Position numbers and translations under genes: made by a program. The notes beneath the pieces were generated by a model that saw nothing but the letters and a program-made list of their open reading frames with translations, was not told the origin of the DNA and did no database searches. Positions 23,052 through 38,385 of a stretch of 64,000 bases of DNA are shown here, one piece after another; position 1 is the stretch's first letter; the number at the start of each line of letters is the position of its first letter. This stretch comes from Pedobacter segetis (GTDB lineage Bacteria; Bacteroidota; Bacteroidia; Sphingobacteriales; Sphingobacteriaceae): NCBI RefSeq assembly GCF_016623585.1, contig NZ_JAEHFY010000011.1, forward strand, positions 1 through 64,000. The letters run 5' to 3'.

Positions 23052-24533
23052 TTATTGGTATCCCGGGTTTTGGGTAATACTTCCTTTTGAAATATCGATC
23101 TCTCTTTGTGGAACCGGCATCAGTACATTAAAGTCTTTTATGCTTGCCCTAGGAATTGATAGAAACGTAGAAGTGCTGTTTTTAATGGTTGAAACAAAAA
23201 TGCCCCATCTTAACAGATCGAATTTTCTGATGCCTTCTAAGCTTAGTTCTGTTGCTCTTTCTTTTCTGATGGCCAATCGTAAACCATTTTTGTCTAATCC
23301 TGATAATGGTGGGATGCCCGCTCTTTCTCGAACCAAATTAATAAACTGATAAGCTCCGTCTGGGCCATTTAACTCATTTTCTGCCTCTGCTCTCATCAGT
23401 AAAACATCAGAATACCTAATGATTGGAACGTTTTGGCTGCTGTTGTTGTATTTGGTAACCCCCGGGCGGTTTAAAAATTTGCCGGTGATGGGGCCAGCAC
23501 CAGGTGTATTTGGCGATACAAGTTGGTTTCCGTCTAAGTTTTCTACATAGCTGATCCCCAATCTCAAATCACCGGGTTCAAACATAGATTTTAATCCTGG
23601 CAAAAGCAGCATATTTTCAAATCCTCCGCCAAAAGCACTGGCCCCCCCTTTTATTTCAACATCCCTAGAGCCTGTCCATGTTCCAATTTGACTGCCAACT
23701 AAGTCTTGTTGGTATTGTCTGGCGAAAATCACTTCGTTAACTAAAGCCCCATTTTTGTCGGGAAAAAGCTGGTTATCAGCATTCTGATCCCACAGGCTAT
23801 TATAGTTTTTTACCAAACCGTAATTGCTAGATCCTATAACCAGTTTGGCAGTTTCGTTCGCATTGTTCCAATCACCCATTGTCATATAAACCCTTACTAA
23901 TAAAGATCTTGCAGCACCTGCGGTTACCCTGCCTGCATCTACAGCCGGATAAACAATAGGTAAATCTTTAATAGCCTCGTTTAGGTCTTTTTTGATAAGA
24001 TCATAAACCTCTGTTACGGTATTTCTTTTGATCCCGACAATAGCATCGGGCCCAGATATAGATTTATCTAAAACCGGAACGCCACCGTAGATCCTTACCA
24101 AATCAAAATAATAATAAGCCCTTAAAAATTTTGCCTCTGCTACGATCCTGTTTCTAAGGGTAAGGTCCATATTGATTTTCGGGACATAATCTATCACCGT
24201 GTTGGCTCTGGCAATTCCTTCATAACTGTTTTGCCACATTACCGTGGCATCGCCATCTAATGCAGATAAATTTGCGAAATAAACCGAAGGCCTTTTATTA
24301 TGGTAACCCTGGAAAGCCTCGTCTGTAGTAACACAGCCATAATAGAAGGATATGGTAGAACTAAAAATACGGGAATAAGCGGCGTTAACTGCTGCTAGTG
24401 CGTCTTTTTGATTGCCCGGGAATGAACCTGGTGTTAAAAAGCTTGTTGGTTTTTCTGTTAAAATATCTTTACAAGATGATATGCAAACCGACATTAATGC
24501 CAATAAACAATAGACTTTAAATATTTTTTTCAT
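23052..24533 (-). CDS. SusD/RagB-type outer-membrane lipoprotein (pair 2)
   Basis: A 493-residue lipoprotein; the lipobox CISSC gives a mature Cys at residue 21. SusD hallmarks are AEAKFLRAYYYFDLVRIYGGVPVLD, IIRYSDVLLMRAEAENE and AIRKERATELSLEGIRKFDLLRWG. It follows its susC by 29 bases and ends at a strong terminator. It is shorter than the SusD of pair 1 and only generally similar, so it probably binds a different ligand. The ligand is unknown. Confidence 0.95.
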   Translation of the reverse strand: MKKIFKVYCLLALMSVCISSCKDILTEKPTSFLTPGSFPGNQKDALAAVNAAYSRIFSSTISFYYGCVTTDEAFQGYHNKRPSVYFANLSALDGDATVMWQNSYEGIARANTVIDYVPKINMDLTLRNRIVAEAKFLRAYYYFDLVRIYGGVPVLDKSISGPDAIVGIKRNTVTEVYDLIKKDLNEAIKDLPIVYPAVDAGRVTAGAARSLLVRVYMTMGDWNNANETAKLVIGSSNYGLVKNYNSLWDQNADNQLFPDKNGALVNEVIFARQYQQDLVGSQIGTWTGSRDVEIKGGASAFGGGFENMLLLPGLKSMFEPGDLRLGISYVENLDGNQLVSPNTPGAGPITGKFLNRPGVTKYNNSSQNVPIIRYSDVLLMRAEAENELNGPDGAYQFINLVRERAGIPPLSGLDKNGLRLAIRKERATELSLEGIRKFDLLRWGIFVSTIKNSTSTFLSIPRASIKDFNVLMPVPQREIDISKGSITQNPGYQ

Positions 24534-24562
24534 TGTTATCTTTTTTAAGATGATTGTATTTT

Positions 24563-27500
24563 TTAAAAATTAAACCTAGCACCAAGGGTAAATGATTTTG
24601 TTGAAGGGTCCTGGGCCAGATCATAACCACGGCGAGTATTGTTAAAGCCCCTATTCACCTCTGGGTCATAGCCACTATAGTTATCAAATAATAATACATT
24701 GGTGCCAGAAACATAAACTTGTGCGCCATTTAACCATTTGATATTCTTTACCGGTAGATCATAAGATAAGCTCACGTTTCTAAGTCTTAAGAACGAGCCA
24801 TCTTCTACATAACTAGAGTTAGAAACTGTCAATGATCTTTGTACAGCTTGTACAGAAGGAACATTGGTATTGGTATTTGTTGGGGTCCATCTGTTTACAA
24901 ACTCGGCAAATGTATTATTATCAAATGCTACACCAATACGAGACCCTGTTTCGTTAAATATTTGGTTTCCCTGAACAAAAGAGAAATAGAAGTTTAATTC
25001 TAACCTTTTATAGGATAATGTATTCCCTATACCGCCAAAAATCTTAGGGTTTGCATTTCCTATTATTTGCCTATCTAAAGTTTGGTTAATAACCTTGTCC
25101 CCGTCTATATCCACATATCTTCTACCACCCGGGAAAACCGAAAACCCCGAAAGGCCCGAGGCATCAATCTCTGCTTGTGAATGCCAGATACCATTTGCAA
25201 CCAATCCATAGAACGAGCCTAAAGGCTGGCCTTCTTGTAAGATACCCGAAATAGAGGTTGAGCCTCTCCCGATATTATTTATCAAGACCTTACCCGTTGG
25301 ATCTGATAGATCAAGTATTTTGTTTTTATTGGTGGCGATATTAAAATTGGTTGTCCATTTAAAGTTGCCTTTATCAAGGTTAACGCTATTAATTGTAACT
25401 TCAAATCCTTTGTTAGAAACCGAGCCGAAATTGCTTAAAGAGGTTTGAAAACCCGTTAACCATAATACAGGTACATTAACTAATAAATTGGTGGTTTTCT
25501 TAGTATAATAATCTAAAGAGGCCGATAATCTGTTTTTAAAAAAGCCCACATCAATACCATAGTTATATTGCTTGGTTGTTTCCCATTTCAAGTTGTCGTT
25601 TCCTAAAGTGTTTGCGGCAATACCTGCAACTAAAGATTGGCTTGCACCTAAAATGTAATTATTGCCATTCTGCGCCAGTTTTGTTAATGATGCGCCAGGA
25701 TCTACTCCCGGGTTTCCTAATTCCCCATAACTTGCCCTTAGTTTCAAATTATCGAATGTCCCTAAATCTCTTATAAAGTTTTCATTACCTATATTCCATG
25801 CTAAGGCAACTGAAGGGAAAGTACCCCATTTATTATTTTTCGCAAAAACAGATGAGCCATCCAAACGGGCAGAAGTAGTTATCAGATATTTACTTTTATA
25901 AGAATAATTGGCCCTGAACAGATAAGACTCCAGTCCTTCTAGTGTGTTGTTAGATGTTGCATCACTACGTACTACCCCAGCTGCCAGATTGTTGTAAGCA
26001 TACGCATCGGTTACAAACCCGGTTGTTTGCACAGAATTGTTAAAATTCTTAATGGTTTGCCTAGTGTACCCAAACAAGCCGCTGAAACTATGATCGCCTA
26101 TCGTTTTGTTATAATTTAACGTATTCTCAATCAATAAGTTGGTGTACTCGGTATTATTAATTGTGGCAGTACCCTGATTTGCGGTTTGCGAAAAAAGCGT
26201 GGTTGGTAAATATTGGTCGGTTCTGCCTGTATTATAGTTTAAACCAAAATTCAATTTGTACTTTAAACCTTTAAGGATCTCTAATTCTCCGTAAGCATTT
26301 CCTATCGTTCTAAAAGCATATGTGGTATTTAAGCTTTGGACCGAAACACTCACAGGGTTATCAGAAGCTAATTCTGTTGTTTGAGTTTGATAGGTAAAAT
26401 TACCATTGGCATCTTTTACCGGAATTGTTGGGAACCACCCTATCAAATCTTCGGCAGAAGTGTTTTTATCCTTGTTAATGGTGCGGCTTAAAGAAAGGTT
26501 GGTCCCAAATTTAAACTTCTCGCCTATCTTATTCTCGGTATTTACCCTAAATTGATAGCGTTTAAAATTACTTTCTATGTGAATACCGTCTTGATCTAGG
26601 TAATTACCAGATACATAAAATATACTTTTATCATTTCCACCAGAAACCGAAAGGTTATGGTTCATCATCAACGCATTATTTTTATATATTTCCTTCTGGT
26701 AATTTGTACCTGCACCCAATGATTCTGGATTTGGATAGGCAAGAAAGCCCTTTACCTCATTTTGCCAGCTCGCAAATTGGGCTGCGTTCATTACGTTTAA
26801 AAATCTTGTAGGAGAGGCAAAATTCGCATAAGTGTCGTAACTAATTTTGGTAACTCCTGCCTTGCCTTTTTTTGTAGTGATTATTATTACCCCGTTTGAT
26901 CCTCTTGAACCATATATGGCTGTTGCCGAGGCATCTTTTAATATCTCAACCGACTCTATATCTGCGGTATTGATATCGTTTAAATTTCCGGCACCAACAA
27001 AACCATCAATTACGTAAAGTGGTTCATTATTGCCTTGAAGAGAATTGCTGCCCCTTATCCTGATGGTAGAAGCAGCCCCAGGTGCCGAGGAAGTGGGCGT
27101 TATTTGTAAGCCCGCAACCTTGCCACGCATGGCATCATCCAAGCGTATGGTTGGTGTTTGCTTTATTTCATCTGCTTTGATCGTACCTACCGATCCGGTT
27201 AAATCTGATTTTTTGACGGTTCCGTAACCTATAACCACCACTTGATCAAGGCTATGTACGTCAGATTGAAGCACTATATTGATTTCAGTCCTCGCATTTA
27301 CAGTAACTTCTTTTGTTTGATAGCCTATAAAACTAAATACCAGTGTTTGATTAGGCTCTGCCTGAATAGTGTAGGCACCATCTGAAGTTGTAGTTGTACC
27401 AAAAGAAGTGCCCTTTACAGATACGCCCACACCCGGTAATGTTAGCCCTGTTTCGTCTTTTACAAATCCTTTTACGGTAATTTTTTTTACTTGAGCATCC

Positions 27501-27583
27501 AGACTTGAAAAGTTGATGAATGCGAATAAAAGAAGCATTAATAAGCTCCTTTTTTTAAGGATAATTAGTTTAGTTTCATTCAT
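24563..27583 (-). CDS. SusC/RagA-type TonB-dependent outer-membrane receptor (pair 2)
   Basis: A 1006-residue outer-membrane importer. A signal peptide covers about 1-31 (LLLFAFINFSSLDAQ), a carboxypeptidase-regulatory-like domain about 35-110 (VKGFVKDETGLTLPGVGVSV), and the TonB-box-like LDQVVVIGYG about 113-122. The plug has YVIDGF and ILKDASATAIYGSRGSNGVIII, and the barrel ends FTLGARFNF. It is the first gene of a two-gene operon with susD2. About 1 kb of non-coding DNA precedes it. The neighbouring HTCS gene lies just downstream on the same strand and is a plausible regulator. Confidence 0.95.
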   Translation of the reverse strand: MNETKLIILKKRSLLMLLLFAFINFSSLDAQVKKITVKGFVKDETGLTLPGVGVSVKGTSFGTTTTSDGAYTIQAEPNQTLVFSFIGYQTKEVTVNARTEINIVLQSDVHSLDQVVVIGYGTVKKSDLTGSVGTIKADEIKQTPTIRLDDAMRGKVAGLQITPTSSAPGAASTIRIRGSNSLQGNNEPLYVIDGFVGAGNLNDINTADIESVEILKDASATAIYGSRGSNGVIIITTKKGKAGVTKISYDTYANFASPTRFLNVMNAAQFASWQNEVKGFLAYPNPESLGAGTNYQKEIYKNNALMMNHNLSVSGGNDKSIFYVSGNYLDQDGIHIESNFKRYQFRVNTENKIGEKFKFGTNLSLSRTINKDKNTSAEDLIGWFPTIPVKDANGNFTYQTQTTELASDNPVSVSVQSLNTTYAFRTIGNAYGELEILKGLKYKLNFGLNYNTGRTDQYLPTTLFSQTANQGTATINNTEYTNLLIENTLNYNKTIGDHSFSGLFGYTRQTIKNFNNSVQTTGFVTDAYAYNNLAAGVVRSDATSNNTLEGLESYLFRANYSYKSKYLITTSARLDGSSVFAKNNKWGTFPSVALAWNIGNENFIRDLGTFDNLKLRASYGELGNPGVDPGASLTKLAQNGNNYILGASQSLVAGIAANTLGNDNLKWETTKQYNYGIDVGFFKNRLSASLDYYTKKTTNLLVNVPVLWLTGFQTSLSNFGSVSNKGFEVTINSVNLDKGNFKWTTNFNIATNKNKILDLSDPTGKVLINNIGRGSTSISGILQEGQPLGSFYGLVANGIWHSQAEIDASGLSGFSVFPGGRRYVDIDGDKVINQTLDRQIIGNANPKIFGGIGNTLSYKRLELNFYFSFVQGNQIFNETGSRIGVAFDNNTFAEFVNRWTPTNTNTNVPSVQAVQRSLTVSNSSYVEDGSFLRLRNVSLSYDLPVKNIKWLNGAQVYVSGTNVLLFDNYSGYDPEVNRGFNNTRRGYDLAQDPSTKSFTLGARFNF

Positions 27584-28598: not shown

Positions 28599-29126
28599 TT
28601 AAAACTTAATGGCCAAGCCTAGCCTTGCGTTAGTAGAACCTACATCGCCAAGTTCTAAAAACACACCTATTTTATCATTAAAATAATATTTGCCCCCAAT
28701 ATGTATCCCAATAAAAAGCCCACTACCGTATTTATTGCCCAAAGAACCTCCAAAATCGTCTTTCCAAGAGAATATACGATACCCCAAAGAAGGACCAGCA
28801 TATAAATCGATATGCTTGTTATTTACTTTTAACAAATTGTTGAAATGATAAGAACCCCTGGCTGCAAGATAGATTGCAGTAAATTTTGAATTTACACCAC
28901 TGGCTCCAAAATCTGTGGCAAGGTAATCGAAATTTCCACCAACACTAATATTATCGTTGATTCCTTTCTCAAACGATGCCCCAAACGGAATGCCGTTATC
29001 ATAAAAAGAATTAACACCAATCCCAATGTTTAGTAGTTTATCTGTTTTGCTAAATGCGCCATTTTGGGCAAAAACTTTAGATAAGCAGAAGAGGTAAATT
29101 AGTATCCCGTGAAATAATTTTTTCAT
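28599..29126 (-). CDS. Small outer-membrane beta-barrel protein
   Basis: A 175-residue exported protein with a signal peptide (about 1-20, ending KVFAQ). Alternating strands rich in Gly and aromatic residues follow (GIGVNSFYDNGIPFGASFEK, AARGSYHFNNLL, FIGIHIGGKYYF), and it ends in Phe after LGLAIKF, as barrel proteins do. The pattern fits an eight-strand barrel; no enzyme motif is present. It follows the MmpS-like lipoprotein gene by 68 bases on the same strand and probably shares its Crp-box promoter. Function unknown. Confidence 0.7.
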   Translation of the reverse strand: MKKLFHGILIYLFCLSKVFAQNGAFSKTDKLLNIGIGVNSFYDNGIPFGASFEKGINDNISVGGNFDYLATDFGASGVNSKFTAIYLAARGSYHFNNLLKVNNKHIDLYAGPSLGYRIFSWKDDFGGSLGNKYGSGLFIGIHIGGKYYFNDKIGVFLELGDVGSTNARLGLAIKF

Positions 29127-29194
29127 TTAAATAAATTTAAAAGCAACTTGTTAACCATTGCTACTATGTACAAAAACCAATGTTTAAAAGCCTG

Positions 29195-29575
29195 TTAATA
29201 AGTAAAACTAAGTCCGCCAAAAATGATAGTTCCATTATTATTTGCAGTTTGCGTTGCTGTTTGTTTTATTTGGCCACCAATATATAAATTAGCCACTGCA
29301 ACCTTGCCAGGCGTGGTAGTACCGTTAGATGTAAACACTACCGCCTGAACAGAATTTTGCACCGTTAACTCTTTTGACCAAGGCAAAGACTGTACGGTAA
29401 CATTTTCTGCTACCCCGCTACTGTTGGTGTAAACCATTGTGAAACTGCCGGTTGCGTTTCCTGTAATTTCATATTTTACCTTTCGGGAAGTAGCGTTATT
29501 GCTCTTTTTGTCTTTAGAGCAAGAACCAATAATTAGTATTGCACCAAGTGCGCTTAAAAGAAATAAATTTTTCAT
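29195..29575 (-). CDS. MmpS-like lipoprotein
   Basis: A 126-residue lipoprotein; the lipobox IIGSC gives the mature Cys at residue 19, followed by SKDKK. The body (VKYEITGNATGSFTMVYTNS, then VTVQSLPWSKELTV) resembles the beta-sandwich of MmpS-type proteins: a VxYEVTG start, a Y-T-N-S-S-G turn and an LPW-S/K motif. The similarity is by eye and the mycobacterial role in lipid transport should not be assumed. It is the first gene of a two-gene unit with a small barrel protein, behind a palindromic operator at 29676-29689. Confidence 0.6.
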   Translation of the reverse strand: MKNLFLLSALGAILIIGSCSKDKKSNNATSRKVKYEITGNATGSFTMVYTNSSGVAENVTVQSLPWSKELTVQNSVQAVVFTSNGTTTPGKVAVANLYIGGQIKQTATQTANNNGTIIFGGLSFTY

Positions 29576-29645
29576 AACTGAAGTATTTTTTGTGAGTTTT
29601 AAAATTATATTACTGAGAAGTTAACCCTCCCTTTATTTATCATAA

Positions 29646-29689
29646 CAAAAATATTTGATGTTAATTTAATACACGTTAACTTAAGTTAA
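29646..29689 (-). promoter_or_regulatory. Crp/Fnr-type operator and promoter A
   Basis: A perfect 14-base palindrome TTAACTTAAGTTAA lies at 29676-29689. On the minus strand a TATTTTTG box (TAnnTTTG) at 29653-29646 starts 36 bases after the operator start. This is almost the same layout as the two promoters at 29762 and 32871. TTAAC-N4-GTTAA has the half-site and spacer pattern of Crp/Fnr-family sites. Confidence 0.65.
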
Positions 29690-29761
29690 GAAATGCGTTA
29701 GTGGTGTTTTTTTTAACGTGAGCTTCGGTATAGTTTTTTAAAATATGCTGAAGCCACTTTC

Positions 29762-29806
29762 TTAACTTAAGTGAATAAATTTTGGCTGTTGGCCGATATA
29801 CTTTTG
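29762..29806 (+). promoter_or_regulatory. Crp/Fnr-type operator and promoter B
   Basis: The sequence TTAACTTAAGTGAATA (29762-29777) is followed by TACTTTTG (29799-29806), starting 37 bases after the operator start. The operator centre would be roughly 42-44 bases before transcription start, the position where Crp-type proteins activate. The same 16 bases, the same promoter box and the same 37-base spacing occur at 32871. Confidence 0.7.
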
Positions 29807-29832
29807 CAGCGTTATTTAACATTCTAAAAACT

Positions 29833-30459
29833 ATGCAAAAGAAAATTTTATGGATTGGGTTGGTTTTAATGCCGATAACTGTACTTCAATTAAAAGCGCA
29901 ATACGCAAAAGAGGATAGTACTTACAAGCGGTACTTTATGGGCAGCACAATGTTTTTGCTGGGTAATTTAGCAAGCACAAACCCTCCAAATTTTTTTCAG
30001 CTTAATTTAGGTTATCGAATTACTGGGAAAGATATAATTACGATAGAACCAAAAACCTGGAAATATGCCTGGCCAAACGGGATAAACCCGATTTTCAATA
30101 AATCGTACGGGAAGGCGGAAGAAAAATTCCCGGGATACGTTCGCGAATTTGGTTTGTCAATTGCCTACCAAAGGTTTATTTGGAATGGTTTGTATGCCGA
30201 ATTTAACGTAATGCCTTCTTCTCAAAAGTTTGTAAATGAAGGAGGAAATAAAATTGACAATGGCTTTCAGGTTTTTAACACTTACCGAATTGGTTATCAT
30301 GTAAAACTTTTTAGCGATAGGTTTTTTATTCAGCCCTCGCTTGCCATTACACACCGGGCTTACCATACAGCATTGCCAAATGGTTTTAAACAGTTAGACG
30401 ATAAATGGTCGAAATTTGTATTTGGCGAACCGGGATTTCACTTCGGTTTTGATTTTTAG
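29833..30459 (+). CDS. Putative outer-membrane beta-barrel protein, paralogue 1
   Basis: A 208-residue exported protein. The signal peptide is MQKKILWIGLVLMPITVLQL plus KAQ. The mature part starts with STYKRYFMGS and shows alternating barrel strands (LGYRITGKDIITIEPKTW, AYQRFIWNGLYAEFNV, YRIGYHVKLF), ending GFHFGFDF. It is clearly homologous to the product at 32943-33563, sharing STYKR, NLGYRI, YQRFxW and a common ending. ATG 29833 is chosen because the signal peptide begins there; the upstream extension covers the promoter. It is probably cotranscribed with 30521-30892. Function unknown. Confidence 0.7.
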   Translation: MQKKILWIGLVLMPITVLQLKAQYAKEDSTYKRYFMGSTMFLLGNLASTNPPNFFQLNLGYRITGKDIITIEPKTWKYAWPNGINPIFNKSYGKAEEKFPGYVREFGLSIAYQRFIWNGLYAEFNVMPSSQKFVNEGGNKIDNGFQVFNTYRIGYHVKLFSDRFFIQPSLAITHRAYHTALPNGFKQLDDKWSKFVFGEPGFHFGFDF

Positions 30460-30520
30460 CGGATAAATAGCAATTCTGACAACAAGTTTTTACGCATTCA
30501 ACAAATCATAACATAATAAA

Positions 30521-30892
30521 ATGAAAAAAATCAGCCTTTATTCTTTATTACTGATGCTTACGGCATCTTTTAGTTCATGTGGCATTGGTGCCGCACTTGT
30601 AACTAACCATAATCAAAATGCCACAGAAGTACAGCTTAACCAAAACAATTTTAAAGTAGTTGACCAAGTAAGTGGAAGTTCTGAAGTTTCTTATGTATTA
30701 GCGATTGGAGGTATGAAAGAGAAGCAACTGTACCAGAATGCATATTCGGCTATGATAAAAAAAGCCAACTTGCTAAATGGTTCAAAAGCGATAACCAACG
30801 TTGTTACCGAGGAACACGTTAGTGGTTTTGCCCCTTTCTTTGTTAAAAGAACGATAACCGTGAGCGCCCAAGTAGTTGAATTTACAAGGTAA
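30521..30892 (+). CDS. Small lipoprotein (DUF6567-like)
   Basis: A 123-residue lipoprotein; the lipobox FSSC gives mature Cys at residue 20. The remainder (NFKVVDQVSGSSEVSYVLAI, AYSAMIKKANLLNGSKAITN, VKRTITVSAQVVEF) fits a small alpha-beta domain of the kind found in short Bacteroidota lipoproteins of the DUF6567 type; that label is tentative. It lies 61 bases behind the barrel gene on the same strand, so promoter B may serve both. Function unknown. Confidence 0.65.
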   Translation: MKKISLYSLLLMLTASFSSCGIGAALVTNHNQNATEVQLNQNNFKVVDQVSGSSEVSYVLAIGGMKEKQLYQNAYSAMIKKANLLNGSKAITNVVTEEHVSGFAPFFVKRTITVSAQVVEFTR

Positions 30893-30925
30893 GATCAATT
30901 AAAAATGTTTACCAATCGCTTTCAT

Positions 30926-30948
30926 GGTTGCCCCTAACAAGGGCAACC
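30926..30948. terminator. Hairpin between convergent genes
   Basis: A perfect 8-base stem GGTTGCCC/GGGCAACC (30926-30933 and 30941-30948) with a 7-base loop lies between the lipoprotein and the oppositely oriented regulator. No T-run follows on either strand, so termination efficiency is doubtful. Confidence 0.4.
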
Positions 30949-31056
30949 TGTAATTAAAAAATTAAAGGTAAGCAGGCGGAACAATCTAGTAAATCAGGAA
31001 CGCTAATTTATGGTTTACTGGGTTTTGCATCAGCTTTTAGCACCTATTAGCAATTA

Positions 31057-31680
31057 CTACACGGCAACTTTACGTTGCGCAATCTCATCGTTCAACAACC
31101 TTTTACGCATGCGGCTTAGCGATTGCGGCGTTAGGCCCAGATAGCTGGCAATTTGATACTGTGGCACACGTTGTAACAAATCTGGGCGTTTGGCAGCAAA
31201 ATTAATGTAACGCTGCTCTGGCGAGGCCATTTTAAAATCGTTAAACTCGGCCTGCTGTTTTACTACCAAAGCCTCTGAATATGCCCTACATAATTTTTCA
31301 AAACGAGGAAACTTCTCTAATATAATTGCTTCAGATTCTGCAGTGCTAACGTTTACTAAACAGTCTTCTAAACAGTCTAAATAATGATCTACAGGTTTAT
31401 TAGTTACCAAACAGCTTGGGGTAAAATAATCGCCTTCCGTATAAAATTCATTTGTTTTCTCCTCACCATCTACCAAATAGTAGCTGCGTAAACAGCCTTT
31501 TATTACATAAAAACTTGTTTTAGAAAACTGCCCTTTCTTAAGTAGCACATTTCCTTTTTTATATTGCCTAAAACTGTGCAGAGAGGTGATTACTTCTTTT
31601 TCTTCTTCCGTAAAATTCATCAATTTAAACATATCGTTTAGGTATTGATTCTTTAGCAGTTCTACTTCTTTTAAATTCAT
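31057..31680 (-). CDS. Crp/Fnr-family transcription regulator
   Basis: A 207-residue cytoplasmic regulator. The N-terminal cyclic-nucleotide-binding-type beta-roll covers about 25-130 (FRQYKKGNVLLKKGQFSKTS, FYVIKGCLRSYYLVDGEEKT), and the C-terminal helix-turn-helix about 165-200 (QYQIASYLGLTPQSLSRMRK). The phosphate-binding Arg-Ser pair of true cAMP receptors is not evident, so the ligand is unclear. Three palindromic TTAACTTAAG sites lie within 2.5 kb on both sides, in front of envelope genes; this protein is the obvious candidate to bind them. Its own promoter shows no such site. The oxidoreductase gene lies just upstream on the same strand, with a gap of 60 bases. Confidence 0.88.
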   Translation of the reverse strand: MNLKEVELLKNQYLNDMFKLMNFTEEEKEVITSLHSFRQYKKGNVLLKKGQFSKTSFYVIKGCLRSYYLVDGEEKTNEFYTEGDYFTPSCLVTNKPVDHYLDCLEDCLVNVSTAESEAIILEKFPRFEKLCRAYSEALVVKQQAEFNDFKMASPEQRYINFAAKRPDLLQRVPQYQIASYLGLTPQSLSRMRKRLLNDEIAQRKVAV

Positions 31681-31740
31681 CGGTTTTTTTATTTAACGCT
31701 TAGCTTTCCGTTTGTAAATCAAATAGTTATATAAATATAT

Positions 31741-32715
31741 TTACTCTGCCACAATTTTCAAAACTACATTACCTGTTTTTTGTCCGCTATCAACATAAGT
31801 GTAGGCCTCAACAATATCGGCCATGTTACGGTAGCTATCAATTACTGGCTTAAACATTTCTTTTTCAACTAATTCTTTTAAAAAGATGATATCGTGTTGT
31901 GAAAGTTCTGGGGGAATTGGAAATAAAACCCTTTTACTGCGCTTCAAAATCCAATGTTTTAGGGCCAAAAAAATATTCGCTCCGTTTTTGCCTGGCTCGG
32001 TAGAAATATAAATACCGTTTTTACTTAGCAAAGGCTTACATATTTTGAACGACGATTTGCCAACCGCATCAAAAACAAAATCGAATTTTTGATTAAGTTT
32101 TGTGATAGCCGATTGTTGGTAGTCGATTACGTTTTTCGCACCTAAACCTTTAACTAGCCCAACATTTTTTGTATTGCAAACAGCGGTAACGTTAGCGCCA
32201 AAATAATTTAAGAGTTGCACCGCCGAAGAACCGATAGCACCGGTAGCTCCGTAAACCAAAACATTTTGATCGGATTTTACTTTGGCCGCTCTGATTATAT
32301 TTAGTGCATAATGAGCACCTTCTGAGATAGCTGCTGCGTGGTATAAGCTAATATTTGTGGGTGCAATGGCTACTGCAGCATCATAGGTGATAGCAACATA
32401 CTCTGCATGGCCACCAAATGTTTTATCATTATAACCAAAAACCTTATCGCCAACTTTAAAACCGCTTACGTTTTTACCGGCATACACTACAATTCCAGAA
32501 AATTCGCTCCCGAGAACCTGATTTTTAGGTTTTAACAAACCACTAAACAAGCGTGAAACAACATATTCGGCACTTCTAAATCCAGCATCCGTACGGTTAA
32601 CGGTAGATGCGTAAACTTTTACCAACAATTCATTATCATTTGGCTGTGGCTGGGCAACTTCTGCCAGATAGGCTACATTTGGATCTCCGTACTTTTTATG
32701 GATGATAGCTCTCAT
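31741..32715 (-). CDS. Medium-chain NAD(P)-dependent oxidoreductase, quinone reductase type
   Basis: A 324-residue cytoplasmic enzyme of the zinc-free MDR group. A GroES-like N-terminal domain (EVAQPQPNDNELLVKVYAST, VLGSEFSGIVVYAGKNV) leads into a Rossmann domain with VLVYGATGAIGSSAVQLLNY and the sequence FDFVFDAVGKSSF. The catalytic zinc ligands of alcohol dehydrogenases are absent. The preferred cofactor and substrate cannot be read. It lies upstream of the Crp/Fnr gene on the same strand, possibly cotranscribed, which suggests a stress or electrophile response; that is inference. Confidence 0.88.
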   Translation of the reverse strand: MRAIIHKKYGDPNVAYLAEVAQPQPNDNELLVKVYASTVNRTDAGFRSAEYVVSRLFSGLLKPKNQVLGSEFSGIVVYAGKNVSGFKVGDKVFGYNDKTFGGHAEYVAITYDAAVAIAPTNISLYHAAAISEGAHYALNIIRAAKVKSDQNVLVYGATGAIGSSAVQLLNYFGANVTAVCNTKNVGLVKGLGAKNVIDYQQSAITKLNQKFDFVFDAVGKSSFKICKPLLSKNGIYISTEPGKNGANIFLALKHWILKRSKRVLFPIPPELSQHDIIFLKELVEKEMFKPVIDSYRNMADIVEAYTYVDSGQKTGNVVLKIVAE

Positions 32716-32870
32716 TAAAATGGCTTTCTATAAACACGACAAAGGAAATCAAAAAGGTTGACCATGGATTTCAGTTTGCATTATAATATTGCCAATACAT
32801 CAAAACTAATAAGTCCTTGTTGCAGTTAATTTTCAAACTGCAAATTTAAGCCATCAAAATCTCTCATCTA

Positions 32871-32915
32871 TTAACTTAAGTGAATACGTTATGGCATCTC
32901 ACCAATCTACTTTTG
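32871..32915 (+). promoter_or_regulatory. Crp/Fnr-type operator and promoter C
   Basis: TTAACTTAAGTGAATA (32871-32886) is identical over 16 bases to promoter B. It is followed by TACTTTTG (32908-32915), again starting 37 bases after the operator start. The coding start lies at 32943, about the same distance as for paralogue 1. Confidence 0.7.
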
Positions 32916-32942
32916 GCATACCATTTAGCAGTAAAAAAAGAT

Positions 32943-33563
32943 ATGCAAAAGAAAATTTTAAGGCTTGGACTAGCATTAATGTTGGCAAGCAGTTTACAGG
33001 TAAAAGCACAAACAGACCAACAAGACAGTACCTACAAACGATGTTTTGTTGGGAGTTCTTTACTCATGTTGGGAAATTTTTCTAAAACAAACAACCCTGA
33101 GTATGTACAATTAAATTTTGGTTACAGAATAACCTTTAAGGATGTTCTTTCGTTAGATTTTAAAAGATCTATTTATTCTTGGCCGATAGGTATCCCTTTT
33201 GGGTCTCCGTCATTTGATAAACCTGGGGAAGGATATTCTGGTCATGCTCGCATACTTGCACCAACAGTAGGATACCAACGGTTTTTGTGGAAAGGAGCTT
33301 TTGCATCTATCCATGCGTTAAATGCCTTTGAAAAATACATAGATGAGGACGGTAAAAAAATTGGAAACGGCTATACGCTATATCTTAACTTCCACTTAGG
33401 TTACCAGCTTAAATTCTTTAAAAACAGGTTCTTTTTTGAACCAGCTGTTGGGTGTAGTTATTGGCCATTAAGAACCAAAGTTCCAGAATCCTTTAAATCA
33501 GTAGAAAATAAATGGCCTAACTATTTTATCCAACCTGGGCTTAATTTTGGGTTTAACTTTTAG
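32943..33563 (+). CDS. Putative outer-membrane beta-barrel protein, paralogue 2
   Basis: A 206-residue exported protein with a signal peptide (MQKKILRLGLALMLASSLQV plus KAQ). It shares with paralogue 1 the start MQKKIL, STYKR, FGYRIT, GYQRFLWKG and an ending GLNFGFNF, but differs strongly in the middle. The extracellular-type loops, such as the segment after WPIGIPFGSPSF, show most divergence. ATG 32943 is chosen on the signal peptide; the frame upstream runs through the promoter. It is transcribed from a promoter nearly identical to that of paralogue 1. Function unknown. Confidence 0.7.
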   Translation: MQKKILRLGLALMLASSLQVKAQTDQQDSTYKRCFVGSSLLMLGNFSKTNNPEYVQLNFGYRITFKDVLSLDFKRSIYSWPIGIPFGSPSFDKPGEGYSGHARILAPTVGYQRFLWKGAFASIHALNAFEKYIDEDGKKIGNGYTLYLNFHLGYQLKFFKNRFFFEPAVGCSYWPLRTKVPESFKSVENKWPNYFIQPGLNFGFNF

Positions 33564-33821: not shown

Positions 33822-35540
33822 TTAATATCCAGGATTTTGTTGATTTCTTAATGCAGGGTTTGAGGTAATCTCATTAAGTGGGATGGCGTATAAATAATTT
33901 TTAGTAGGATCAAAGTTTAACTTATCTACATTTACTGTTTGATAAGTAAATGTAGTTGTACCTGTTTTAGTGATTTTTATACCATGAAGTGTGCTGTTGC
34001 CCACCACATCCGCAATTTTCCACCTACGTATATCCCAAAAACGTTGTTCTTCAAAAGCCATCTCTATACGTCTTTCATTTCTAATTGCAGTACGCATTTC
34101 TGCTTGGGTCATGGTGGTTTTTAAACCATATTGGTACCCAGCGGTTGTCCCTTTGGTAATACCTGCCCTAGCCCTTATAGCAGCAAGTTGATTGAAAGCT
34201 TCGGTTTGGTTTGTTCCTGTTCCGGCTTCATTTATGGCCTCTGCATAATTTAGTAAAACTTCGGCATATCTAAATATTGGGAAAGAACGCTGTTGGTTTG
34301 AATAAGAGCTTGCGTTTGCGAAATCTCCCAAAAACTTACGCTCATAATAACCAGTTCTGGTAGCTCCTTTTATATTGGTTGGGTTATCTAAACCGCCCTC
34401 AAAAGCTTCTACGGGCCTGCCCAACCAATTATCCCCATTTAAGAAAACGGTATAAGCTAACCTAGGATCGCGGTTGGCGTATGGGTTTGCAGGGTCATAG
34501 CCCGAAGCAGGGTCAGTAATTGGTCTGCCGTTTAACGCTGGGAAAGCATCTACCAAATCTTGGGTCGGGCTAACAACACCTCTACTGTTATTGGTAAAAA
34601 CATAGCCAATTGGTGCATTGGCTTTTTCTAAATTAACGTTTGGTGCTGTTTGATACCCTAAAATAGATTCATAATTGTTGCCCCTAACCACAAATTGATT
34701 TGCAAACGCAGGTAAGTTACCTGCTGCTACGGTATATAGTTTTAAGTTTGTTAAACCCGTTATAATTGCTTTGGCAGCAGATGCTGCATTTGCCCATCTT
34801 GTAAGATCATTATTTGGGTTGTTTAATGGGCTAGCAGCATATAACAAAACTCTTGCCTTTAATGCCATTGCTGCGCCAACACTTATCCTCCCGATGTTAG
34901 AGCCTGTTAGTTCGCCATTAGAAGAATAATCATTAGGCCTTAAAAAACCAGCAATGGCATCGCACTCACTAACGATATATTGTACGCACTCATCATAAGT
35001 GTTTCTCGGGATGTTGATAACTTCTGTGCCATCGTAAATTTTATCCCCGATTAGAGGAACACCACCGTATCGTTTAATCAATTCAAAATAGCTAATAGCC
35101 CTAATAAACCTAACTTCAGCTTTATAAAAAGTTTTTGTTAAAGGGTCAATCGGCACTACCAGTTCATTGGCGAGATAGTTATTTGCATTTCTGATTGTAT
35201 TGTAGGCATCGTTCCAATTATTATCGGGATTAGAGTTTGCGGTAATACGCGATTTTGCAAGGTCTTCAATGGTTGCGTTGTAGCTGCTAGCAACTGCATC
35301 GTCTGTGGCGGCATCTAAGGGCAAACCATCAATTCTGTTAAAACCATTGGGCAAGCCTAGATACAGACTGACTACCCGCTGTTGTAGATAAGTTCCGTTT
35401 TTATCTTTACTATCATAAACTATGCTATCAGTTAAGATGTCTAGAGGTTGGGTCTCATATTTTTTACAGGCATCTAAACTTACTAATCCTGTAAGTAACC
35501 CTGCCGTAAAAATCGTTTTCAAATATATTTTCATCTTCAT
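33822..35540 (-). CDS. SusD/RagB-type outer-membrane lipoprotein (last gene of tandem operon)
   Basis: A 572-residue lipoprotein; LVSLDAC gives the mature Cys at about residue 25. SusD marks are AEVRFIRAISYFELIKRYGG, ALKARVLLYAASPLNNPN, IFRYAEVLLNYAEAINEAG and AIRNERRIEMAFEEQRFWDI. It begins 7 bases after the stop of the shortened susC, so the two form a coupled pair. It is longer than the other SusDs here. Ligand unknown; the setting beside GH43 and uronate genes hints at a pectin-derived glycan. Confidence 0.95.
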   Translation of the reverse strand: MKMKIYLKTIFTAGLLTGLVSLDACKKYETQPLDILTDSIVYDSKDKNGTYLQQRVVSLYLGLPNGFNRIDGLPLDAATDDAVASSYNATIEDLAKSRITANSNPDNNWNDAYNTIRNANNYLANELVVPIDPLTKTFYKAEVRFIRAISYFELIKRYGGVPLIGDKIYDGTEVINIPRNTYDECVQYIVSECDAIAGFLRPNDYSSNGELTGSNIGRISVGAAMALKARVLLYAASPLNNPNNDLTRWANAASAAKAIITGLTNLKLYTVAAGNLPAFANQFVVRGNNYESILGYQTAPNVNLEKANAPIGYVFTNNSRGVVSPTQDLVDAFPALNGRPITDPASGYDPANPYANRDPRLAYTVFLNGDNWLGRPVEAFEGGLDNPTNIKGATRTGYYERKFLGDFANASSYSNQQRSFPIFRYAEVLLNYAEAINEAGTGTNQTEAFNQLAAIRARAGITKGTTAGYQYGLKTTMTQAEMRTAIRNERRIEMAFEEQRFWDIRRWKIADVVGNSTLHGIKITKTGTTTFTYQTVNVDKLNFDPTKNYLYAIPLNEITSNPALRNQQNPGY

Positions 35541-35547
35541 GTTTCAA

Positions 35548-38385
35548 TTAAAATGTAACAGATAAACCACCATTTACTACTTTCAGGATTGAATAATCAG
35601 AAAAAGGCATCTCTGGGTCAAAAATCTTAAAGTCAGAATGGGTAAATAAATTTTCGCCATTAACAAACAGGCGGATATTTTTAACCTTTATTTTATCTAA
35701 TAATTTTGGAGAAAAGTTATACCCCAACTCTATGTTTTTTAACCGCACATAACTGGTACTCCTTAACCAAAAAGATGATGCCGCATAATTATTGGGGTTG
35801 CCTCCAATGGTCAACCGAGGAAAAGTAGCCGTATTGGCGGTTTGTGGTGTCCATCTGTTTAAACTTTCTGGGAAAGCTTGTGAAATACCACCATTAGGAG
35901 CATTTAAGAAAGGGAATACGGTATTGCCCGATAACATTTCATTGGTATTGGCTAATCCTTGTACCAAGAACGACAAGCAAAACTTGTTGTAGCTAAATTG
36001 AGAGCTTAAACCATAGTTTATAATTGGTTTTGCTTTTCCGATTGCTGTTACATCTCGGTAGTCAATAGTATTATCGCCATTCAAATCCTTATACTTTATA
36101 TCACCGGGTTTTGAAGCGTATCCGGTAATTACCGGCCCTTGGCCTGCCGTGGTTACAAAACCATCTGCGATATAACCATAATTTTGATTTGTATATTGCC
36201 CCGTTCTGATCAGGTTTTGGTAGCCCGCTGTTTGTTCTCCATTAAAGATTGTTTTCACTTGGTAGGTAGAAAAATTAGCTGCTACAGAATAAACAAGCTT
36301 TCTTGTTTTGTTTGTTGTAAAACCAATTTCAGACTCTATTCCTTTAATATCGTTTTTACCGATAAAAGAGGTAGGATAAGTAGAACCAAGGATGCCAGAA
36401 TCATACCCGGTTGTTATTGGTAATTTTGATTGTTTATTTAAAAAGTAATCAAATGAAACCCAAAGCTGATTTTTCAATAAAGAAGCATCTAACCCTACAT
36501 CCGTTTTTAAAGATTGAGACCAGGTATTATTAAAAGGAATTGCGCCTTCAACCAAGCTATTTAAGTTTGAACCGCTTGGGCCAAAAGGATAATTTCCGCC
36601 ACCAACGTAGCCTTTTTGGTTGTCGAAGTTTCCGGCATTGATACTACCCGTTAAGCCATAACTTCCACGCAGCTTTAAGGCATCAATAAATTTTACCGAT
36701 TTCATAAAACCTTCGTTATTGATATTCCAGCCAAGCCCAACCGCAGGGAAAAACCCATACTGCTGCCCATCAACATAATAATTTAACCCGCTGTAAGCTG
36801 CGGCACCTTCTATAATATACTTTTTATCGAAATCGTATTTTAAACTAGCGGCATAATTAGTAAGTACTCTGGGAAGAAAATCGCCCACAAAATTCTTGTA
36901 ATTTTCTGAATTGGCAGTTAAAAATGCCGTTATACCGTTTTTATTAAATCTTCTGTTATAATTAGCGGTAAATTTTGCATATGATGTTTGTTGTGAAGCC
37001 GATACGTTTGAGGTGTTTGATTGGTTATTGGCAGAACTTAGGGTGGTGTAAACTGGATTTCCGTTTGCATCTACGCTGTAATTAACAACTCCAAAAGCTT
37101 TGCTTCTATTGGTATTCAAATTTGTAAAAGAACTAAAAGATAATTTCCCCCCGATAGACAAACCTTTTGTAAGGTTATCTAGAGATTGTTTTAGGCCAAA
37201 ATCAAAGAAGCCTTCTCTTGTCAAACTCTGGAAATAACCATTGTAAGTTGATCTTCCCCATAAATTGTTGCTATAATTAATGTTACCGCCCAGTGTGCCG
37301 TTAGGGTTATAAACTGGGTATGCGTTGTTAGGGGTAATGTTTAATTCACTGGTAACCGCAGTCAAATTACCCCCTGCAGGTGCATTGGTATCGTTAACAC
37401 GGCCATATAGGTTTAAATAACCTTCTAAGGTTTTTGTTAATTGCAGATTAATATTAGAGCGTAATATGTAACGTTTATAACTTGCGTTGGTTTCATAGCT
37501 ATTACTATCCAACTCGTTTAACAAACCTCCTTGGTCTAAATAATCCATGGATAACATATACCTTAACGACTTGCTTTTACCATCGGCATATAAGTTGGTT
37601 CTACTGTAGCCTGCGTTATTTTTGTAGATCTGTTTTTGCCAATCTACATTTGGGTGCAAATAAGGGTCGCTGCCATCTTTATAGGCTTGTAGATCAGCAG
37701 GAGTATAAAGTGGTGCTTTTCCATCGTTTGCCAAAGCCTCATTATATAGAGTAGAATAATCGAAAGCGTTTAAATATCTACGAGAAACCACCGGTGATTG
37801 AATGCCCGCTTGCGTTTTTACGTTAAAATTGAAATAATCTGGCCCATTGCTTTCTCCTTTACGCGTTGTTATCAAAATAGCACCGTTCATGCTGCGTTGG
37901 CCTAGGGTTACGGTAGATATAGCATCTTTCAAAACAGTAACTGAGGATATTTGTTCTGGGTTAAGCTCAGAAATATCCCTTGGCACCCCATCAACTAAAA
38001 TGGCGGGGCTTCTACCCCTCAAGGTTAAAGAAACGTTATCAGAGCCAGGGATACCAGAATCTTGTGTGGTTCTTAAACCTGCGATCCTACCGGTTAATCC
38101 TTGAAATATAAAGCTATTTGGGGTGCTTTCTAAAGCTCTCCCGTTTAAATAGCCCAATGCTGCAACATTTAATTTATTCTCTGATTTTTGGCCATACAGA
38201 ATAGCAATACTATCGGCCTTAATTTTTATTATTTGAGGATGCTGATTTATCAACGAATCCGTCTCTTTGATTTTGCTCTGAGCTTGAGTGTTATAAGATA
38301 TGGTTGACAAACCTAATAACATGCACACCATTTTGCCCGGCATTTTTATATGGCTATATAAGCCCATAAATATATTTTTTAACAT
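35548..38385 (-). CDS. SusC-like TonB-dependent receptor lacking the usual N-terminal domain
   Basis: A 945-residue outer-membrane receptor. After a signal peptide (about 1-36, ending NTQAQ) there is only a short linker, with no carboxypeptidase-regulatory-like domain. In place of the usual VVVxGYG box it reads LNVAALGYLNGRAL. The plug is intact (GRIAGLRTTQDSG, AILVDGVPRD, VTVLKDAISTVTLGQRSMNG) and the barrel ends GGLSVTF. Receptors without this domain do occur as second members of tandem SusC pairs. Whether it still engages TonB is uncertain. ATG 38385 has a purine-rich stretch (AAAGAAA) before it. It is the third gene of a C-D-C-D operon. Confidence 0.9.
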   Translation of the reverse strand: MLKNIFMGLYSHIKMPGKMVCMLLGLSTISYNTQAQSKIKETDSLINQHPQIIKIKADSIAILYGQKSENKLNVAALGYLNGRALESTPNSFIFQGLTGRIAGLRTTQDSGIPGSDNVSLTLRGRSPAILVDGVPRDISELNPEQISSVTVLKDAISTVTLGQRSMNGAILITTRKGESNGPDYFNFNVKTQAGIQSPVVSRRYLNAFDYSTLYNEALANDGKAPLYTPADLQAYKDGSDPYLHPNVDWQKQIYKNNAGYSRTNLYADGKSKSLRYMLSMDYLDQGGLLNELDSNSYETNASYKRYILRSNINLQLTKTLEGYLNLYGRVNDTNAPAGGNLTAVTSELNITPNNAYPVYNPNGTLGGNINYSNNLWGRSTYNGYFQSLTREGFFDFGLKQSLDNLTKGLSIGGKLSFSSFTNLNTNRSKAFGVVNYSVDANGNPVYTTLSSANNQSNTSNVSASQQTSYAKFTANYNRRFNKNGITAFLTANSENYKNFVGDFLPRVLTNYAASLKYDFDKKYIIEGAAAYSGLNYYVDGQQYGFFPAVGLGWNINNEGFMKSVKFIDALKLRGSYGLTGSINAGNFDNQKGYVGGGNYPFGPSGSNLNSLVEGAIPFNNTWSQSLKTDVGLDASLLKNQLWVSFDYFLNKQSKLPITTGYDSGILGSTYPTSFIGKNDIKGIESEIGFTTNKTRKLVYSVAANFSTYQVKTIFNGEQTAGYQNLIRTGQYTNQNYGYIADGFVTTAGQGPVITGYASKPGDIKYKDLNGDNTIDYRDVTAIGKAKPIINYGLSSQFSYNKFCLSFLVQGLANTNEMLSGNTVFPFLNAPNGGISQAFPESLNRWTPQTANTATFPRLTIGGNPNNYAASSFWLRSTSYVRLKNIELGYNFSPKLLDKIKVKNIRLFVNGENLFTHSDFKIFDPEMPFSDYSILKVVNGGLSVTF

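Follow-up and report, generated by a model that had tools for sequence, protein, structure and literature searches.

The gene at positions 31057-31680 (minus strand) of a 64,000-nucleotide stretch of Pedobacter segetis DNA (NCBI RefSeq assembly GCF_016623585.1, contig NZ_JAEHFY010000011.1, positions 1 to 64,000; hereafter the window) encodes a Crp/Fnr-type regulator of 207 amino acids, which quite probably acts as a local activator of neighbouring outer-membrane genes through an operator located at a fixed distance from the promoter. Binding of the operators by this protein is very likely and activation is likely. In the segment concerned (28599-33563 of the window), a 14-base near-palindrome, TTAACTTAAGT(T/G)AA, occurs three times among seven genes. 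The combination of operator and promoter box accompanies relatives of the regulator in other genomes, with fixed spacing and recurring targets that belong mostly to the barrel and lipoprotein families seen here, which supports the original prediction of a local Crp/Fnr regulon.

Operators and promoter geometry

All three operators match the pattern with 0 mismatches. Operator A (29676..29689), a perfect 14-base palindrome, belongs to a minus-strand promoter, with the -7 box TATTTTTG at 29653-29646 (minus strand; spacing 36) and a predicted transcription start at approximately 29641. Operator B (29762..29775, plus strand) is followed by the box TACTTTTG at 29799..29806 (spacing 37; predicted start approximately 29811). 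Operator C (32871..32884) serves both strands, having boxes at the right distance on either side: TACTTTTG at 32908..32915 on the plus strand (promoter C; spacing 37; predicted start approximately 32920) and TAAATTTG at 32848-32841 on the minus strand (divergent promoter D; spacing 36; predicted start approximately 32836). Spacing is given from operator start to box start, the box being defined as TAnnTTTG, which all four promoters match exactly. Promoters B and C have 16 bases in common, TTAACTTAAGTGAATA. The positions 29676, 29762 and 32871 originally proposed for the operators, the distances of 36, 37 and 37 to the boxes of A, B and C, and the 16 bases and identical box shared by B and C were all confirmed by coordinates. 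The three promoters initially claimed are likewise borne out by the sequence, A working on the minus strand, but their number was too low, as operator C also serves the fourth, leftward promoter. The operator form, TTAAC-N4-GT(T/G)AA, corresponds on sequence to a Crp/Fnr-type operator, with 5-base half-sites 4 bases apart as in the FNR type.

The exact operator occurs only at these three places in the 3,842,102-base genome. The exact symmetric pattern TTMACTTAAGTKAA was found at three places, compared with 0 for its reversed control, and a third-order Markov model of the window predicts 0.12 exact sites per genome; by chance, a box at 36 or 37 would be expected on approximately 0.16% of free strands. 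When one mismatch was tolerated, 12 strand-hits at seven places were obtained genome-wide versus 10 strand-hits for the control pattern, so the word is not enriched at this stringency, and a search of both strands up to 60 bases from the four 1-mismatch places elsewhere in the genome gave no TAnnTTTG. A chance origin of the sites is ruled out by these genome-wide counts and controls. Occurrence of the same operator/box spacing at many unrelated genes, which would have spoken against a dedicated regulon, was not seen in this genome outside the locus; in related genera the spacing is found at other targets too, usually beside other Crp/Fnr paralogs, which widens the picture.

Class II Crp/Fnr activators bind centred at -41.5. 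Operator centres were computed here, with starts predicted rather than mapped, from the position of the flavobacterial box, TAnnTTTG being described for Flavobacterium as the -7 box that the main sigma factor uses, at -12 to -5 (PMC9723704). A spacing of 36 places the operator at -48 to -35, centred at -41.5 (two promoters), and a spacing of 37 moves the centre to -42.5 (two promoters). By this calculation, the operator centre is near the class II position in all four promoters. None of them has TTG at -36 to -30, as fits promoters needing an activator.

The distance between operator and box was then surveyed in 399 genomes of the family with the pattern operator-N(8 to 38)-TAnnTTTG. Thirty-two matches were obtained in 29 genomes, with a gap of 22 in 17, a gap of 23 in 15 and no other gap, against two matches for the reversed control; approximately ten kinds of target gene, classified by eye, have the 22/23 gap. 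The 32 matches are not independent, since many are related promoters. The search tool does not force the 22/23 result, because TTGAC-N4-GTCAA, submitted to the same search in 151 genomes, returned mixed gaps. On this pattern of gaps, the operator-box spacing is evidently under selection. Repression, by a regulator that would block sigma from the -33 region while bound at -48 to -35 and be released by a signal, is compatible with an operator covering about -49 to -35 and with four boxes that match TAnnTTTG exactly. We consider it rather unlikely, since the lack of TTG at -36 to -30 is expected of activator-dependent promoters, -41.5 is the class II activator position, and a gap of 22-23 in 32/32 matches is stricter than occlusion needs.

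Co-occurrence of regulator and operator

The operator and the regulator gene travel together. Among 100 genomes (own included), the exact operator was detected in 5/7 of those whose regulator is at least 50% identical and in 9/93 of the others. The operator (at most one mismatch) with a box at 36/37 was found within 1.5 kb of the regulator gene at 11/19 loci with 48-100% identity (own included), 0/7 at 38-43% and 0/22 at 29-37%, while the operator alone, at the same tolerance and distance, was present at 16/19, 2/7 and 1/22, respectively. Three metagenome-assembled genome records (Bacteroidota, Chitinophagaceae and Balneolaceae) contain regulators 49-53% identical with an exact or 1-mismatch operator nearby, the box being present only in the Balneolaceae one.

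A class-wide search of 295 genomes, carried out by DNA pattern and not by gene, returned 15 matches (control: two), consisting of the three described here and 12 in eight genomes of six other families. All 12 outside-family sites have gap 23 and lie 67-76 bases before the ATG of a barrel-family member. A relative of the regulator (203-224 bits) was found in 11/12 of these loci and in 8/8 genomes, with Gln at the key helix position in seven and Pro in one. Every class-wide pattern match belongs to the module of regulator, operator and barrel.

These distributions also bear on whether another protein, either a Crp/Fnr paralog or a member of another regulator family, binds the operators, the local gene being a bystander. 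Two more Crp/Fnr homologues are encoded in the genome at E <= 1e-5 (three matches in all, compared with 13 in G274; such genes can be numerous in the family), and some genomes have the motif without a relative at E <= 1e-35 (seven candidates per genome scored). Nevertheless, the motif co-occurs with the regulator gene across the family as well as in the eight genomes of six other families, and loci that lack the close relative usually have some other Crp/Fnr gene next to them. Moreover, of the two other homologues in this genome, one carries Thr at the key position, whereas no such helix is seen in the open frame of the other. We therefore judge a different binder to be quite improbable.

At most sites near relatives of the regulator, the operator is preceded by an additional ATTTC and often followed by CGAG; the ATTTC is missing from the other sites. 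At L019 (G007), the 14-base palindrome is part of a longer inverted repeat, itself perfect and trailed by T residues, which is probably a terminator containing the word by chance.

Regulator protein, recognition helix and target genes

The original prediction of a Crp/Fnr-type gene between the sites was upheld by domain search, structural model and Foldseek. The product matches PF00027 (E 7.5e-10) and, below its cut-off, HTH_Crp_2 (E 8.2e-04). Its model (predicted local distance difference test, pLDDT, 86) has the Crp/Fnr superfamily fold, comprising a beta roll, a long dimer helix and a C-terminal helix-turn-helix, with CRP, FNR, GlxR and NtcA as top Foldseek matches. The best match with a solved structure is 3dn7, a putative cyclic-nucleotide-binding regulator of Cytophaga hutchinsonii (E 3.2e-28), which is 22-24% identical over the structural alignment.

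The phosphate-binding signature of CRP has the form G-E ... R-S/T. No Arg occurs between residues 83 and 105 of the regulator, and sensing of cyclic AMP (cAMP) is rejected for this protein on the ground of the missing phosphate-binding Arg. Among the outside-family relatives, the G-D start of the phosphate stretch is lost in 8/8, one of which (L246) has Arg in the stretch, as does L082. The 4Fe-4S oxygen sensor of FNR relies on an N-terminal cysteine cluster; that cluster is absent here, the first Cys being residue 63, with cysteines at 63, 90, 103, 107 and 131. Of 22 relatives (own included), 22 have Cys63, 21 have Cys103 and 22 have Cys131, and all three are retained in 7/8 outside-family relatives. 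Among 86 lower paralogs, Cys63 is present in 41 and Cys103 in three, and at position 131 the six most frequent residues do not include Cys. Together with the oxidoreductase encoded next to the regulator, the three conserved cysteines suggest a thiol, electrophile or metal signal.

The recognition helix, TPQSLSRMRK, has Pro, Gln and Arg at CRP positions 180, 181 and 185, Gln186 occupying the position of CRP Glu181 and Arg190 that of residue 185. CRP position 181 has been linked to the half-site by Rodionov and others in 2005 (PMC1274295). Regulators of a second clade (L105-L130) were found via the motif and lower paralogs via protein similarity, so that a sample of 93 paralogs was the sole unselected test of a residue rule linking this position to the operator. 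Operator and box lay within 1.6 kb for 3/14 of the Gln/Pro paralogs in this sample and for 0/79 of the others (one with a gap at the position), a contrast that is weak taken alone because the three are this protein and two close relatives. Nine distinct motif-selected paralogs (near-copies counted once) comprised eight with Gln or Pro and one, L108, with Glu. G146 was initially counted as an exception, but a second relative, with Gln, lies near its sites; on contig 27 (L220/L232), this relative is split over two frames and is located between two exact operator sites.

TTGAC-N4-GTCAA palindromes gave 27 matches versus 23 for the reversed control. The pattern as a whole is therefore hardly above control, and only the subset with a 22/23 gap beside Crp/Fnr genes stands out, such genes adjoining 6/9 loci at gap 22/23 and 0/18 at other gaps. 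The five distinct regulators of the 22/23 loci have Glu (three) or Ser (two) at the key position. TTGAC palindromes at the 22/23 gap, beside other Crp/Fnr paralogs with Glu or Ser in the helix, were observed at L200, L201, L204, L209, L215 and L216.

Behind promoter A lie the genes for an MmpS-like small lipoprotein (29195..29575, minus strand; PF05423, E 6.9e-05) and, second, for a small barrel-like protein of 175 amino acids (28599..29126, minus strand; weak DUF3575 match below cut-off). Promoter B precedes barrel B (29833..30459, plus strand; 208 amino acids), with its ATG 71 bases past the operator start, and probably a second gene encoding a DUF6567 protein (30521..30892, plus strand; PF20205, E 7.7e-51). 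Promoter C precedes barrel C (32943..33563, plus strand; 206 amino acids; 42% identical to barrel B), whose ATG is 72 bases past the operator start. The divergent promoter D faces a gene for an NAD(P)H:quinone oxidoreductase-like protein (31741..32715, minus strand) and, after a further 60 bases in the same orientation, the regulator gene itself, which makes D a candidate for autoregulation. The expectation that all controlled genes encode envelope proteins is accordingly only partly right, since the oxidoreductase-Crp/Fnr pair, which operator C also faces, is among the likely targets. The model of barrel B (pLDDT 74.8) has eight strands of at least six residues and a C-terminal Phe; its best structural matches, OmpA-type barrels and CarO, are weak (E approximately 2e-3), and a Pfam search assigned it to no family. 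The region is flanked by two gene pairs, at 23052-27583 and 33822-38385 (minus strand), which by eye resemble SusD/SusC-type nutrient uptake pairs.

Targets were surveyed around relatives of the regulator, allowing up to three mismatches in the operator (at most two were found) and one in the box, and leaving out L061 and L085, which come from the same genomes as L084 and L060. Operator and box preceded 14/18 barrel matches, the other four being two downstream genes, one 26-residue fragment and one exact operator with a defective box. They were directly upstream of 6/7 small-barrel genes, the seventh being the one described here, second behind the lipoprotein gene. Among lipoprotein genes, 3/11 had operator and box, six followed another target gene and two had none. 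An oxidoreductase gene was present in the same stretch as the regulator in 16/28 surveyed loci with a regulator. In other genera, the motif stands before FAD (flavin adenine dinucleotide)-monooxygenase-like, hydrolase-like or membrane-protein genes, or before a Crp/Fnr gene (assigned by eye from the first residues). At L105, L116, L123-L126, L129 and L130, the same operator and spacing occur with a second Crp/Fnr clade adjoining FAD-monooxygenase-like or hydrolase-like genes, in what look like small detoxification modules. The tree of the regulators was inferred by a quick method, with 19/61 inner branches open and three rows left out (one partial, two neighbours of other rows), and shows L108 as a long branch.

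The diversity of targets is also informative on whether the sites are merely left over from duplication of upstream regions and regulate nothing. Both barrel genes B and C, which are paralogous, have a site, and their promoters are not fully independent for that reason. Inherited similarity of this kind is nonetheless scarcely credible, as operators with this spacing are also found before unrelated genes (those for the lipoprotein, the small barrel and a 793-residue protein, among others) and persist while the flanks diverge; the upstream regions of B and C themselves align poorly outside operator, box and coding start. Mere duplication of B and C is ruled out by the geometry shared with A, the small-barrel promoters and unrelated targets.

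Counter-evidence, proposed mechanism and related systems

Several observations weigh against a local activator that reads this operator. A site at -41.5 could in principle repress, and a TTTG occurs somewhat lower in promoter B, at -30 to -27. Operator and box, with two mismatches allowed, were found at 11/19, 0/7 and 1/22 loci of the three identity classes given above, so that at this tolerance one lower paralog locus shows them too. No Crp/Fnr open reading frame occurs within 1.5 kb at 10/30 fetched family loci with the motif; six of these loci are in genomes with a relative elsewhere (G000, G003, G146 twice, G274 and G420) and four are not. Conversely, relatives in G003, G009 and G011 have no operator (at most one mismatch) within 1.5 kb: G003 has an exact operator 6.6 kb away, G011 a 1-mismatch operator with box approximately 3.6 kb past the gene, and G009, on a contig that stops 1.5 kb beyond the gene, only a 1-mismatch site that has no box. 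Oxidoreductase genes have an exact site with box in 1/17 cases (the one described here), a degenerate one in four and none in 12. With regard to the helix, site and box within 1.6 kb are missing from 7/7 Gln/Pro paralogs of the unselected sample that are not close relatives, G274 and G420 have exact sites with box while their nearest relative has Glu, and L108 (Glu, with site and box) and L187 (Glu, with operator but without box) break the residue rule. A strict code in which Gln181 equals TTAAC is not upheld in view of G274, G420, L108 and L187, and the rule is a tendency.

Under the activator interpretation, a dimer of the regulator would bind TTAAC-TTAA-GT(T/G)AA with one subunit per half-site, Gln186 and Arg190 reading the half-site; the protein is predicted to bind a duplex containing TTAACTTAAGTGAA. 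Bound at -41.5/-42.5, the dimer would occupy the position from which class II activators contact RNA polymerase, the promoters having a good -7 box but no TTG at -36 to -30. Four transcripts would be turned on, namely lipoprotein and small barrel, barrel B and DUF6567 protein, barrel C and, less certainly, oxidoreductase and regulator. The purpose may be outer-membrane remodelling under chemical or redox stress sensed via cysteines 63, 103 and 131.

Local Crp/Fnr regulons are a known kind of system. NssR of Campylobacter jejuni, involved in nitrosative stress, is reported to have the motif TTAACnnnnGTTAA, Ala at 180 and Gln at 181, and to regulate its target positively (PMC1274295). It shares Gln at CRP position 181 with the present regulator, but belongs to another phylum, has Ala where Pro is found here at position 180 and targets a globin gene instead of envelope proteins; furthermore, the central four bases here are nearly always TTAA (TTAA having been part of the pattern by which the sites were chosen), and the promoter is of the TAnnTTTG type. 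HcpR/HcpR2 are also Crp/Fnr proteins with few targets, in which a change at 181 accompanies a changed half-site (GTAACnnnnGTTAC with Pro181; PMC1274295). Their targets, hcp and related genes, were not recognised among those seen here (barrels, lipoproteins, oxidoreductase and others), for which no dedicated search for nitric oxide-defence genes was made. Class II promoters of Escherichia coli CRP have the same operator centre of -41.5 (here computed), but the half-site is TGTGA instead of TTAAC, and the present system differs in its TAnnTTTG box and in lacking the cAMP-phosphate Arg. CrpPg of Porphyromonas gingivalis is likewise a Bacteroidota Crp homologue, reported not to bind cAMP, and differs in being described as a global regulator (PMC12040651). 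No published operator for this regulator group, nor a partnership of regulator, operator and barrel, was found in searches of the open-licence PMC literature, and the present regulator, operator and barrel partner were not found described there.

More broadly, and tentatively, since we give this somewhat less than an even chance, the locus may represent an undescribed, class-wide envelope switch of Bacteroidia, in which a cysteine-bearing Crp/Fnr sensor acts on a 14-base operator at -41.5/-42.5 before an adjoining eight-stranded barrel. The same proposal includes a CRP-181 reading rule, usable but not strict, for the local Crp/Fnr regulators of the phylum (Gln/Pro with TTAAC; Glu/Ser with TTGAC), extended to TTGAC because palindromes of that type at the 22/23 gap also adjoin Crp/Fnr genes. 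With its defined operator, fixed geometry and recurring target, the system would constitute a regulon that can be tested directly and that covers outer-membrane proteins of unknown function; it may also offer a start for predicting the operators of other paralogs from one helix residue.

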